Shown here in pieces: positions 28,082 to 32,052 of a DNA stretch of 64,000 nt. Position 1 is the stretch's first letter, and each line of letters starts with the position of its first letter. Source of the DNA: Verrucomicrobiota bacterium (GTDB lineage Bacteria; Verrucomicrobiota; Verrucomicrobiia; Opitutales; Opitutaceae); the NCBI GenBank assembly GCA_016235555.1, contig JACRKC010000114.1:248001-312000 (forward strand), given 5' to 3'. The position numbers were made by a program, and so were the translations under genes. A model generated the notes under the pieces. The model was not told the DNA's origin. It saw nothing but the letters and a program-made list of their open reading frames with translations, and did no database searches.

Positions 28082-28191
28082 ATGAGATGTTTGGATGCGA
28101 GGGAGAGAAACGCGCGGCACTGGTTTGTGCCGGAAAAGCGGCGAGAAGTGCCAGCGCGTCCCGGGAAATGCAATCAATTACTCCCCGCCCG

Positions 28192-28278: not shown

Positions 28279-30189
28279 ATGAACCCCGAACAATTCTGGA
28301 CCTCGCAGGACGGCCAAATCCTCACGGTGAAAAACAAGGACGACGGCACGGTCGCCCTCACCCTCGCCTTCTGGCCGCGGCACCCCGCCGAATTTGAGTT
28401 CCTCAAAACCAGCCTCGCGTCCCTCCGCTTTACCGAACGCAGTTCGCTCGCCCGCATCGGCATCGAAATGCTCATCCACGGCCAGCCCCACATCGAGGGC
28501 AACCGCCTGGAACTCTCCGCCGACGCGTTCATCTACGACTCCACGTTCCCCAACGCGCCCTACTGGAAGAAACTCCTCCGCGTGGGCGCCCCGGTCGGCC
28601 GCCTGTTTTTCGCTCCACCCGCCGCCAAGCTCTCCACCGCCGAGATCTGGTCCGCCATCAAGAACAACGACCTCAAGCTGCCCAACACCATCAGCATCGA
28701 CTCGCGCGGCCGCGTATTCTTCACGCCGCACCAGGTCAGCTACACGCTCAGTCCGAAACTCCAGCGGCTGTCCTTCGAGCGGGTGGTCAGCGGTCGCGCC
28801 GGCCGCGGCTTCCTCGACAAGGTCCAGGTCCGCCACGACGCCAGCCCGCTTTCCATCCAACCCCACTCCGGCATCCTCACCAGTTGCTCGATGTATCTGA
28901 AGGAGCACTTCGTCCTCCTCAATCCCGGCGAGGGCAACTTCGGCATCCACACCGCCGCCGTCCTCCTCGATCCGATCAAGACTTTCGGCACGAACATCAT
29001 GCTGGAAATCTACAACAGCGGCGACCAGCCCGTCGTGAACCCCATGGTCTCCGTCGAGATCTACCGCGCCCCCGAAGCCTCCGACCCCGAGACCAAGACG
29101 CTCGCCAAAAAACGCCAGCGCCTCCTCACCGCCGCCAGCACCGTCTTTGAGCGCCTCGATTCCAATCCGCCCCGCGACAACGCCGAGGCTAAGCCCCGCA
29201 CCCGCATCACCGTGCGCGGCCAGAGCAGCATGATGGAGAACCGCGCCGTCGTGCTCCGCGCCACCGACGACCTGAAAAAATTTCTCGACGGCGAAAAAGC
29301 CCCGCTCGGCTCCCGCACGATGATCCAGGCACTTGACGCCGCGCCCTCGGACGCCGACACGCTCATCACCGATTACTTCCCCGACCTGCTCGAAAACTTC
29401 GAACTCGTCACGCGCCTCGGCGGCGACCTGAAGCTCAAGCGCCTCATCTTCCGCAAGGCCTCGCGCACCCACGGCTACTTCCTCTCCAGCAACGCCCACG
29501 CGCGCCTCGACATGTTCGATGCCATCGGCCTCCAAGTCTATTGGTATGACGAGCTGACGAAGGACCTCTACTCGCACATCTACAAAAAGGACCACGGCTT
29601 TTTCGTCCGCGAGGAGATGGCCCGCCGTTTTCAGGAGGCGACGGTGCTCGCCTTCTACGGTTCCGCGCTCGGCCTCGACCAGGCCGACACCGACCGGATC
29701 TCCACCCTCGTCGAAAAACTCACGAGCTTCATCGGCTCCAACCTCGGCGTGCTCACCGGCGGCGGCGGCGGCGTCATGCGCCTCGCCACCGATCAGGCGC
29801 GCGGCAAGGGTGCCCTCACCGGTGCCTGCTTCCTCGAACTCGAAGCACAACCGCCTGAGCTCGGCGTCGATTTTTTCAACACCTTCCAGGAATCGTCGCG
29901 CCACTTCCGGCAAAAATGGTTCGAGGCGGCGGATTTCTGCATCTTCAACGTCGGCGGCGTCGGCACGCTCGAGGAAGTCGGCATCGAGATGTGCAACCTC
30001 AAGCTCGGCATCCGCCCGCGCGTGCCGTATGTGTTCTTCAACGCCAAATTCTGGACCGACCTCCGCAAGCAGGTGCAGGAAATGATCCGCACCAAGCGCG
30101 CCCCGGCGTGGATGGCCGACTACATCCTCTTCACCGACGACCCCGACGAAGTCGTGGCGTTTTACCGGAAGAAGTTGCAGGTGCTGTAA
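28279..30189 (+). CDS. Large LOG-family protein with a dCTP deaminase/dUTPase-like N-terminal segment
   Basis: A 636-residue protein. The C-terminal third (from about residue 450) is a LOG/lysine-decarboxylase-like Rossmann domain: AFYGSALGL, the GGGGGVM loop near residues 494-500 and VGGVGTLEEVG near 558-568 (the Pro of the usual PGGxGT is Val). Such enzymes cleave the glycosidic bond of nucleoside monophosphates. Residues about 195-262 (for example GIHTAAVLLDP and MLEIYNSGDQPVV) resemble the dCTP deaminase/dUTPase beta fold, keeping a Glu near residue 242 but not the upstream RSSLAR block. The middle is unassigned. The ATG at 28279 is used; 28252 is possible. A toxin-antitoxin pair follows 44 bp downstream. 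Confidence 0.65.
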   Translation: MNPEQFWTSQDGQILTVKNKDDGTVALTLAFWPRHPAEFEFLKTSLASLRFTERSSLARIGIEMLIHGQPHIEGNRLELSADAFIYDSTFPNAPYWKKLLRVGAPVGRLFFAPPAAKLSTAEIWSAIKNNDLKLPNTISIDSRGRVFFTPHQVSYTLSPKLQRLSFERVVSGRAGRGFLDKVQVRHDASPLSIQPHSGILTSCSMYLKEHFVLLNPGEGNFGIHTAAVLLDPIKTFGTNIMLEIYNSGDQPVVNPMVSVEIYRAPEASDPETKTLAKKRQRLLTAASTVFERLDSNPPRDNAEAKPRTRITVRGQSSMMENRAVVLRATDDLKKFLDGEKAPLGSRTMIQALDAAPSDADTLITDYFPDLLENFELVTRLGGDLKLKRLIFRKASRTHGYFLSSNAHARLDMFDAIGLQVYWYDELTKDLYSHIYKKDHGFFVREEMARRFQEATVLAFYGSALGLDQADTDRISTLVEKLTSFIGSNLGVLTGGGGGVMRLATDQARGKGALTGACFLELEAQPPELGVDFFNTFQESSRHFRQKWFEAADFCIFNVGGVGTLEEVGIEMCNLKLGIRPRVPYVFFNAKFWTDLRKQVQEMIRTKRAPAWMADYILFTDDPDEVVAFYRKKLQVL

Positions 30190-30233: not shown

Positions 30234-30464
30234 ATGAGTGCCAAGCTCGCTGAGATTTCCGATGCCGCCCGCGCACTTTCCACCGACGAGAAACTCGCCC
30301 TGGCCGAGGAGCTTTTTGCCGCGGCACTCCACGAGAGTCCGTCCCCGCACGAAACTGCCTGGCAGGCGGAAATCCAACGTCGGCGCGAAGAAGTCCTGTC
30401 TGGCAAGGTGAAGTTGATTCCAGGTGATGAAGTCGAGCGCTCGCTCGATCGTTTGCTGGGATGA
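30234..30464 (+). CDS. Putative antitoxin of the addiction-module component family
   Basis: A 76-residue acidic, helical protein (EISDAARALSTDEKLALAEE) ending in EEVLSGKVKLIPGDEVERSL. This is the pattern of the TIGR02574/Unstab_antitox family of small antitoxins paired with RelE/ParE toxins. It is too short for most gene finders, but the ATGA overlap with the toxin gene strongly supports it. It is expected to bind and neutralise the toxin and to repress its own promoter. That promoter would sit in the 44-bp gap after the LOG-family gene. Confidence 0.82.
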   Translation: MSAKLAEISDAARALSTDEKLALAEELFAAALHESPSPHETAWQAEIQRRREEVLSGKVKLIPGDEVERSLDRLLG

Positions 30465-30760
30465 AGCCTGTCGCCTACCACCCGGCCGCACACGCCGAGT
30501 TGGAAGCCGAGATTTCGTATTGCGAATCGGAACGCCCGGGAGCCGGGGTCCGGGTTCGGGCGGATGTCGCTGCCACACTCGCGCGAGTTCGCGAATTTCC
30601 GGGACTCGGGCGTCGGGATCATCAGGGGTGGCAACACATCGTCACCCGCCGTTGTCATTACGTCGTTCACTACGAATTGCTGCGCGACGAAATTGTCGTC
30701 TGGGCCGTGGCCGACCCCGCGCGAGAACCCGGTTATTGGCTGTCACGACGCCAGCTGTGA
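30461..30760 (+). CDS. RelE/ParE-family toxin
   Basis: A 99-residue basic protein. It opens MKPVAYHPAAHAELEAEISY and ends with the beta strands HYVVHYELLRDEIVVWAV, a pattern typical of ParE/RelE-fold toxins. Depending on subgroup these inhibit gyrase or cleave mRNA on the ribosome; the sequence alone does not decide. It is translationally coupled to the preceding antitoxin (ATGA). The purD start codon lies 5 bp after its stop, so read-through into purD is likely. Confidence 0.82.
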   Translation: MKPVAYHPAAHAELEAEISYCESERPGAGVRVRADVAATLARVREFPGLGRRDHQGWQHIVTRRCHYVVHYELLRDEIVVWAVADPAREPGYWLSRRQL

Positions 30761-30765
30761 TTCAC

Positions 30766-32052
30766 ATGCCCTCGCTCCCTCGCTCCCTCCTCGTCGTCGG
30801 CTCCGGCGGACGCGAACACACGCTCGTCCGCGCGCTGCTCGCCTCGCCCGCGCGGCCGCGCGTCCTCTGCGCGCCGGGCAACGCCGGCATCGCGCAGGAC
30901 GCGACGTGCTTTCCCGTCGCCGCCGACGACATCGCCGGGCTCGTCGCGCTCGCCCAGCGCGAGCGAGTCGAGTTCGTCGTCGTCGGTCCCGAGGTCCCGC
31001 TCTCACTCGGCCTCGTTGACCAACTCGAAAAGGTCGGCATCCCCGCCTACGGCCCGAAAGCCGATGGCGCGCGCCTCGAAGCGTCGAAGATTTTTACGAA
31101 GCAGCTCCTGCTGAAATACCACATCCCCACCGCGCCCGCCGGGATCTTCAGCGAAGTCGACCCCGCCCTCGCCTACCTCCGCCAACGCGGCGCGCCCATC
31201 GTGATCAAGGCCGACGGCCTCGCCGCCGGCAAAGGCGTCGTTGTTGCGCAAACACTCGTCGAGGCCGAGACCGCCGTGCGCGACATGCTCGCGGGCGGCA
31301 AGTTTGGCGCCGCCGGCAAACAGATCCTCATCGAGGACTGCCTCGTCGGCGACGAGACGTCCCTCCTCGTCGTCGTCTCCGGCCGCGACTACGTCATCCT
31401 CCCGACCTCGCAGGATCACAAGCGCATCGGCGACGGCGACACCGGCCCCAACACCGGCGGCATGGGCACCTACTCGCCCGCCGAGGTGGTCACGCCCGAT
31501 CTCCTTACCCGCATCGATCGCGAAATCGTCCGCCCGTCCGTCGACGGCATCGCCGCCGAGGGCATCGAATTTCGCGGCACGCTCTTCATCGGCATCATGC
31601 TCACGCCCGACGGCCCGAGCGTGCTCGAATACAACACCCGCTTCGGCGATCCCGAAACGCAGGTCGTCCTCCCGCGCCTCAACACCGATCTGCTCGCCCT
31701 CCTCTGGGCCGCCGCCCGCGGCGAGCTTCGCGGCGTCACCCTCGACGTGAAGCCCGACGCCGCCATGTGTGTCGTCGTCGCCGCGCGCGGCTACCCCGAT
31801 GCCTACCCGAAGGGCGATGTGATCCGCTTCCCCGCCACGCTCCCTCCCGTCGTTACGGTCTACCACGCGGGCACGGCGAAAAACGCCGCCGGCGAGGTCG
31901 TCACCGCGGGCGGCCGCGTGCTCGGGGTGACCGCCTTGGGCCCGACCCTCCGTCTCGCGGCGGATCGCGCCTACGCCGCCTGCGAGCAGATCGGTTGTGC
32001 CTCGAAATACTTCCGTCGCGACATCGGCGCCCGGCAACTCCTTCGCCGCTGA
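30766..32052 (+). CDS. purD: Phosphoribosylamine-glycine ligase
   Basis: A 428-residue ATP-grasp enzyme of purine synthesis. LLVVGSGGREHTL opens the N-domain, VVGPEVPLSLGLVD and the ATP-grasp core IVIKADGLAAGKGVVVA follow, then SQDHKRIGDGDTGPNTGGMG and NTRFGDPETQ, all diagnostic of PurD. It converts phosphoribosylamine and glycine to GAR. The ATG at 30766 lies just downstream of the toxin gene. Its TGA shares a base with the next start (TGATG). Confidence 0.95.
   Translation: MPSLPRSLLVVGSGGREHTLVRALLASPARPRVLCAPGNAGIAQDATCFPVAADDIAGLVALAQRERVEFVVVGPEVPLSLGLVDQLEKVGIPAYGPKADGARLEASKIFTKQLLLKYHIPTAPAGIFSEVDPALAYLRQRGAPIVIKADGLAAGKGVVVAQTLVEAETAVRDMLAGGKFGAAGKQILIEDCLVGDETSLLVVVSGRDYVILPTSQDHKRIGDGDTGPNTGGMGTYSPAEVVTPDLLTRIDREIVRPSVDGIAAEGIEFRGTLFIGIMLTPDGPSVLEYNTRFGDPETQVVLPRLNTDLLALLWAAARGELRGVTLDVKPDAAMCVVVAARGYPDAYPKGDVIRFPATLPPVVTVYHAGTAKNAAGEVVTAGGRVLGVTALGPTLRLAADRAYAACEQIGCASKYFRRDIGARQLLRR

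Follow-up and report, generated by a model that had tools for sequence, protein, structure and literature searches.

Two probable dCTP deaminase-like domains joined to a LOG domain in a core gene of the Opitutaceae

Single-domain dCTP deaminases (Dcd) and dCTP deaminase-dUTPases share one fold and the motifs RSSxxR, H, D and E. The RSSxxR and the Glu of one active site in trimeric dCTP deaminases come from different subunits, and the canonical Dcd carries a C-terminal nucleotide lid of the form KY..Q/R. Escherichia coli deleted for dcd shows poor growth when no thymidine is supplied (PMC10733785). Doubled versions of this architecture exist: the two-domain dCTP deaminase (DCD_N, PF06559), represented by 2r9q of Agrobacterium tumefaciens, has tandem dCTP-deaminase folds, and the monomeric herpesvirus dUTPase is a doubled chain whose motifs are shared between two domains. 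PpnN (YgdH) has a LOG core flanked by extra domains; it acts on nucleoside monophosphates and cleaves UMP (PMC12322656, PMC6717881), and its flanking domains bind pppGpp and gate the LOG-like core (PMC6717881). Here, we describe a gene in a 64,000-nucleotide stretch of an Opitutaceae genome of the phylum Verrucomicrobiota ("the window"; positions 248,001 to 312,000 of contig JACRKC010000114.1, assembly GCA_016235555.1), whose product very probably joins two dCTP-deaminase-like domains, with the motifs shared between them, to a C-terminal LOG domain. A sequence-only reading of the locus had proposed one dCTP deaminase/dUTPase-like module beside a LOG domain; such a module is present, but what had been taken for a single unit is very probably two domains in tandem. 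Among the matches listed from the open-access literature, there was no paper on a fusion of a dCTP deaminase to LOG/SLOG.

The gene is one uninterrupted reading frame of 636 codons, the frame being open from position 28087, and its start at ATG 28279 is backed by homologs sharing the conserved start MNPxQFWTSxDG (also found as MNPxQFWTSQDG). Conservation was followed in a diverse alignment, A1 (37 rows including the window protein, 49 to 83% identical to it), and a closer one, A2 (80 rows, which contains the window protein and shares some sequences with A1). Sequence libraries recognize only the C terminus, where PF03641 (LOG) is matched at residues 545 to 626 with 35.4 bits (cut-off 27) and TIGR00730 of NCBIfam reaches 32 bits, under its cut-off of 96.35.

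The N-terminal half was compared by hhalign with a profile of 22 Dcd proteins from related genomes. Residues 52 to 113 aligned to it with an E-value of 3e-4 and a probability of 40%, or 59% when the segment was cut to residues 30 to 130, and the same 1-275 profile aligned end to end over residues 117 to 265 with an E-value of 1.6e-4 and a probability of 51%, the KLSTAEIW helix that opens domain 2 aligning with the N-terminal helix of Dcd. Against Dcd, the E-values of the middle and LOG segments were 0.51 and 0.61, and unrelated pairs in this type of pairwise comparison gave 0.025 to 0.61. Scores against the Dcd profile were 36.5 for residues 1 to 275, 33.2 for residues 30 to 130 and 25.9 for residues 150 to 275, and none of the 200 column shuffles of each segment reached its own observed score (the largest for residues 150 to 275 was 24.7), whereas 147 and 171 of 200 shuffles did so for the middle and LOG segments. 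The two higher scores exceed all 1,000 shuffles made, and 25.9 does not. By its sequence profile, the N-terminal half is recognizable as a member of the dUTPase superfamily, domain 2 on its own more weakly.

Structure prediction points the same way. Two models were built, one of the whole protein (model 1; 80 sequences, mean predicted local distance difference test [pLDDT] 65, predicted template modeling score [pTM] 0.42) and one of residues 1 to 270 (model 2; 79 sequences, pLDDT 73, pTM 0.69). The best PDB match of model 1 in Foldseek was 2r9q (E 2.1e-6), followed by LOGs and Dcds. In VIA, model 1 matched 2r9q over residues 2 to 268 (Z 14.4, 237 aligned, 3.7 Å) and single dCTP deaminases or dCTP deaminase-dUTPases within residues 116 to 267 (Z 7.2 to 9.5); model 2, run on Foldseek's list, matched 2r9q with Z 10.3 over 229 aligned residues, the next row having Z 6.0. 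Residues 2 to 268 therefore show a dUTPase-superfamily fold in models of modest confidence, and a predicted fold unrelated to dUTPase, which would have spoken against the module proposed from sequence, was not what emerged.

The active-site motifs are divided over the two domains. The stretch GIHTAAVLLDP...MLEIYNSGDQPVV (residues 222 to 253), which had been likened to the segment around the catalytic Glu of dCTP deaminase, does hold that relationship, with E243 mapping to the catalytic Glu. RSSLAR is indeed absent directly before this stretch, as noted earlier, but it is not missing from the protein: ERSSLARIG lies at residues 53 to 61 of the same chain, in domain 1, about 190 residues ahead of LEIYNSG (A1). 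R54, S55, R59, H224, A227, D231 and E243 are invariant in all rows of both alignments. In the profile alignment, R54, S55 and R59 fall on R110, S111 and R115 of E. coli Dcd, and H224, A227, D231 and E243 correspond to its H121, A124, D128 and E138; E138 and H121 are also named in the PDB titles of matched structures. Domain 1 keeps no Glu at the catalytic position, residue 78 varying among A, E, F, I, L, T, V and Y across the rows of A1, and domain 2 has GEGNFG in place of RSSxxR; the two domains are therefore complementary.

Compared with single-domain Dcd, the window protein thus divides the motifs over two domains, nearly lacks the lid and is fused to further domains. Its tandem folds stand in the same order as those of the PF06559 type, and the motifs are split alike: in nine alphaproteobacterial two-domain dCTP deaminases from plasmid records, domain 1 carries KSSxGRxD and domain 2 carries HYAGxxDxGFG...VLEVR. 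The PF06559 type differs in that its domain 1 keeps a conserved Glu, in keeping a YQ lid and in having neither middle nor LOG domain. Profile comparison (hhalign) of the window protein with these nine gave no significant similarity (E 0.11), whereas the profile of these nine matched single Dcd with E-values of 1.8e-16 and 5.7e-8. When 288 genomes of the phylum were sampled, three had a PF06559 match and none of these belongs to the window's family; the window's genome gave no match. The tandem arrangement may have arisen independently or may have diverged beyond the reach of the profile test. The herpesvirus dUTPases (Epstein-Barr virus, 2we2 and 2bt1) gave weak structural rows matching domain 2 only (Z 4.8 to 5.1); they belong to another lineage and have no LOG domain.

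The C-terminal assignment to LOG made from sequence is backed by three results: PF03641 above its cut-off, an hhalign E-value of 3.6e-13 against 15 LOGs from related genomes, and Z-scores of up to 11.4 (1t35) in VIA for residues 459 to 636 of model 1. The LOG core of PpnN also aligns structurally (9hs3, Z 8.5), and its flanking domains DUF4478 and DUF3412 were not detected in the window protein. With the cytokinin-activating LOG phosphoribohydrolases of types I and II, the window protein shares the fold, GGxGT and the terminal Glu; it differs from them in the replaced Pro of the motif, in RHxRQK for Arg-Lys and in scoring below the TIGR00730 cut-off. Five of the six fixed positions of PGGxGTxxE are invariant (G559, G560, G562, T563 and E566), as are E565 and, in the basic motif, R541, H542, R544, Q545 and K546. 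For CgLOGII, PMC5379747 gives Arg155 and Glu178 as the catalytic residues and reports that activity is lost on substitution of Arg155, Lys156, Thr175 or Glu178 and nearly lost on substitution of Asp177. E566 corresponds to Glu178, E565 and T563 also correspond to CgLOGII residues, and two alignments put Arg155 at H542 or F543, with the invariant R541 and R544 on either side. Conservation is highest in the LOG half (mean majority share 0.80, against 0.63 to 0.78 elsewhere). Since the same genome encodes a second, canonical LOG with PGGIGTLEE (contig C125, 94065-94580), the LOG domain of the window protein is probably specialized.

Between these parts lies the least conserved region, most likely an alpha/beta fold, the middle domain. 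Of the 50 VIA rows listed for model 1, nine matched this part to the cytidine-deaminase fold, with Z-scores of 6.0 to 6.7 that VIA's own note calls middling; they include human dCMP deaminase (2w4l), RibD, a guanine deaminase of Nitrosomonas europaea and APOBEC3H, and six of the nine come from N. europaea, apparently from one protein. By eye, the order of helices and strands in model 1 also resembles that fold. No conserved Cys or His was found at the sites aligned by eye with the zinc ligands (H/C)xE and PCxxC; an invariant P368 is followed by (N/D/S/T)xxE372 in place of PCxxC. Because comparison with the profile of 26 PF00383 proteins gave E-values of 0.30 to 0.54 (local) and 0.57 to 0.88 (global), we treat the middle domain as a lead only and not as an accepted deaminase relative. 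Matches of this domain to BtuF (E 0.075 or worse) were dismissed.

Table 1. Positions, in window coordinates, of the gene, its domains and motifs, and neighboring genes
Feature	Residues	Position	Strand	Basis or remark
Tandem-DCD/middle domain/LOG protein	1-636	28279..30189	+	Frame; conserved start
Domain 1, dCTP-deaminase-like	1-114	28279..28620	+	hhalign match to Dcd at residues 52-113; alignment with 2r9q begins at residue 2
RSSLAR	54-59	28438..28455	+	R54, S55, A58, R59 invariant, 37/37 and 80/80 rows
Domain 2, dCTP-deaminase-like	115-268	28621..29082	+	hhalign residues 117-265 to Dcd; structure
HTAAVLLDP	224-232	28948..28974	+	H224, A227, D231, P232 invariant
LEIYNSG	242-248	29002..29022	+	E243 equivalent to catalytic Glu, invariant
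Middle domain	270-445	29086..29613	+	Resembles cytidine deaminases in modeled fold but not in sequence profile; lacks zinc ligands
LOG-like domain	450-636	29626..30186	+	PF03641; hhalign; structure
RHFRQK	541-546	29899..29916	+	Family-specific basic motif, near LOG catalytic Arg-Lys site
VGGVGTLEE	558-566	29950..29976	+	PGGxGTxxE motif, Pro replaced
Antitoxin-like gene, neighbor only		30234..30464	+	PF09720; ATG 30234; sporadic
ParE-like toxin gene, neighbor only		30461..30760	+	PF05016; sporadic
purD, conserved downstream neighbor		30766..32052	+	Pfam GARS domains; start by inspection

The gene is a core gene of one family, the Opitutaceae and kin. We searched 95 relative genomes, 61 of the window's own family and 34 of the order outside it, and found a full-length or contig-cut copy in 56 of the 61 family genomes, one of which (G057) has a second, partial copy. 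Of the remaining five, G011, G022 and G036 gave no match, G033 gave only a weak match to the LOG end and G047 only short remnants; G047 is 97% complete, the other four 67 to 86%. The remnants in G047 (contig C1, 3284655-3285063) are decayed pieces of residues 1 to 107 and 603 to 635 within about 400 bases. Outside the family, 1 of the 34 genomes of the order has the gene (G083, 49% identity). Full-length matches in the 288-genome sample of the phylum were confined to the window's family, with the LOG end alone matched elsewhere, and G083 was not among the matches. The best 80 of 204 relatives in named genomes are titled Opitutaceae, Opitutae, Opitutia, Opitutales, Opitutus, Lacunisphaera or Cephaloticoccus, and some just as unspecified Verrucomicrobia/Verrucomicrobiota. 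Weak LOG matches came from five genomes of the family or order; those in G033, G080 and G028 proved on reading to be LOG proteins, and those in G017 and G069 had no LOG frame among the open reading frames examined.

Other collections were searched as well: viral contigs gave 56 pattern matches with no relative among them, phage records gave LOG-end matches only (E 4), a plasmid search with the N-terminal half gave just three matches (E 3), all to one holin gene, the viral fold library gave nothing at E ≤ 0.001, and a PADLOC scan of the protein gave zero matches. Residues 131 to 153 (KLPNTISIDSRGRVFFTPH) resemble an NHL/beta-propeller repeat and draw designed Pizza proteins in hidden Markov model searches; these are repeated short matches of about 3 to 7 bits that sum to small E-values, and we judge them probably a matter of chance.

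Neighbors were counted in the 88 loci where the gene was called, out of the window and 90 loci longer than 9 kb; they were grouped by single linkage and named from Pfam matches of the window copies, and the counts are approximate, some loci being from near-identical species or from one genome held in two sources. Of the 88 loci, 68 contain purD, which in 50 cases follows directly as the next gene called on that strand; 58 have serine hydroxymethyltransferase (glyA), 53 have a low-molecular-weight phosphatase, and 45 have a divergent FKBP gene on the upstream side. The toxin-antitoxin pair that had been read beside the gene is real: an antitoxin-like gene and a ParE-like toxin gene, overlapping by four bases, lie in the gap before purD. 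A complete pair occurs at the same place in only 2 of the 90 other loci (L067 and L090), two further loci have partial toxin matches there and a fifth locus has a weak match at another position, so the pair is a sporadic guest in this gap. The contexts of the homologs are thus largely housekeeping ones, the finding that had been named in advance as telling against a role in defense.

Several observations weigh against an active composite enzyme or against the domain assignment behind it, and we gather them here. No Pfam, NCBIfam, PADLOC or PHROGs family was found in residues 1 to 435 at the limits used; hmmscan of single sequences against Pfam gave no DCD model in any of the 37 members, and NCBIfam likewise gave no DCD match in the N-terminal half. 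The HH-suite probabilities for Dcd likeness are modest (40 to 59%), residues 150 to 275 taken alone reach only an E-value of 0.0024 and a probability of 12% in hhalign, and their score of 25.9 is weak by itself because shuffling the middle segment produced a score as high as 32.3. The fold assignment is limited by its dependence on two agreeing but modest models. The loop with H224 to D231 is poorly modeled in both; pLDDT is under 50 at residues 206 to 238 of model 2, a span that includes H224, A227 and D231, and also at residues 488 to 550 of model 1, in the LOG domain. Downstream of the Glu, 18 of 22 Dcds but only 1 of the 37 rows show the lid pattern [KR]Y.{1,3}[QR]; for its strict Q form the counts are 9 of 22 and 0 of 37. 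The near absence of the canonical C-terminal lid weighs against catalysis. In the LOG domain, all 37 rows have V, M, L, I or T in place of the Pro of PGGxGTxxE, so that the full motif is not present, and the alignments do not place the catalytic Arg with certainty. Finally, dUTPases and PF00383 deaminases (candidate dCMP deaminases) already cover the pathway.

How might such a protein work? By analogy with the trimeric enzymes, domains 1 and 2, of the same or of neighboring chains, would build one composite pyrimidine-nucleotide site, which would bind and probably deaminate a cytosine (deoxy)nucleotide, and the LOG domain would hydrolyze a nucleoside monophosphate to the base and (deoxy)ribose 5-phosphate. 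The fusion would let the nucleotide state seen by one half control or feed the other, like the gated LOG core of PpnN, which by this analogy would be the best guide to function. We consider the chances evenly balanced that the protein is a housekeeping unit of this kind, in which a composite pyrimidine-nucleotide site and a LOG nucleosidase act together. The near absence of the lid would also suit a protein whose deaminase part has lost catalysis and instead senses a pyrimidine triphosphate, such as dTTP or dCTP, to open or close the LOG site. dCTP deaminases are regulated by dTTP (PMC4827122), PpnN with its pppGpp-binding flanking domains (PMC6717881) offers a precedent, and the LOG half is the most conserved; but residues expected for chemistry beyond binding (E243, D231, H224 and R59) are invariant, and we rate such a nucleotide-gated nucleosidase as possible though rather unlikely. 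Overall, the likeliest readings are these two, a housekeeping enzyme of nucleotide metabolism or a nucleosidase gated by nucleotides, in either case with a new architecture. A still more specific proposal, and a somewhat more doubtful one, is a single-chain pyrimidine-nucleotide triage enzyme, in which the composite deaminase site, a zinc-less deaminase relic in the middle and the LOG nucleosidase would act together: either (d)CTP would be deaminated and the monophosphate then destroyed, or the level of deoxynucleoside triphosphates (dNTPs) would switch monophosphate breakdown, making the protein a dNTP-gated counterpart of the pppGpp-gated PpnN.

Were all the enzymatic centers degenerate, the protein might be an inactive scaffold with an unrelated structural or regulatory job; a middle domain without zinc ligands, the nearly absent lid, the replaced LOG Pro and a catalytic Arg that was not placed would all fit. 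Such a role is improbable, as the dCTP-deaminase-like motif set and GGxGTxEE are invariant in homologs down to 49% identity. The sequence-only reading had favored a nucleotide-depletion or sanitizing defense working with the adjacent toxin-antitoxin pair. That pair does lie downstream, and dCTP deaminases and cytidine deaminases can counter phage, a point on which the abstract on the AvcD deaminase bears. Defense is nevertheless unsupported because the pair is only a sporadic neighbor, and we reject it as very improbable given a gene present in 56 of 61 family genomes, its conserved housekeeping neighborhood, the lack of any PADLOC match, the lack of a relative among the 56 pattern matches in viral contigs and the finding of LOG-end matches only in phage records. 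The N-terminal half of a near-universal family gene, unseen by Pfam and NCBIfam, appears to be a second, sequence-divergent build of the two-domain dCTP deaminase with shared motifs, and through its fusion to LOG a single chain would combine the handling of dNTPs with the breakdown of nucleoside monophosphates. If active or gating, it would be a new form of pyrimidine-pool control and would give a function to a gene near purD and glyA. The findings also correct the tempting defense-gene interpretation prompted by its toxin-antitoxin neighbor.

The pathway context was surveyed in the same genomes. The window's genome gave no TIGR02274 dcd and no TIGR00576 dut but did contain a dimeric dUTPase along with PF00383 deaminases; with these present, there is no obvious need for the window protein in removing dUTP or supplying dUMP, and the suggested sanitizing of the nucleotide pool (dUTP) would be unneeded here. 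Among the 61 family genomes, dcd scored above its cut-off in 7 and trimeric dut in 14 (one more just below), the dimeric dUTPase (PF08761) is present in 47, and by hand count 41 had no match at E ≤ 0.001 to either TIGR02274 or TIGR00576. We rejected the idea that the protein is the missing dUTPase of the family, as 47 of 61 genomes have PF08761 and 11 of the other 14 have trimeric dut; the remaining three, G011, G027 and G033, are 67 to 89% complete. Nor do we claim a pattern of replacement of dcd: G047 has dcd together with remnants of the gene, but six other genomes with dcd keep the gene. As a side observation, trimeric dut and the dimeric dUTPase are nearly mutually exclusive in the family, the former occurring in 11 of 14 genomes without PF08761 and in 4 of 47 genomes with it (one just under the cut-off).

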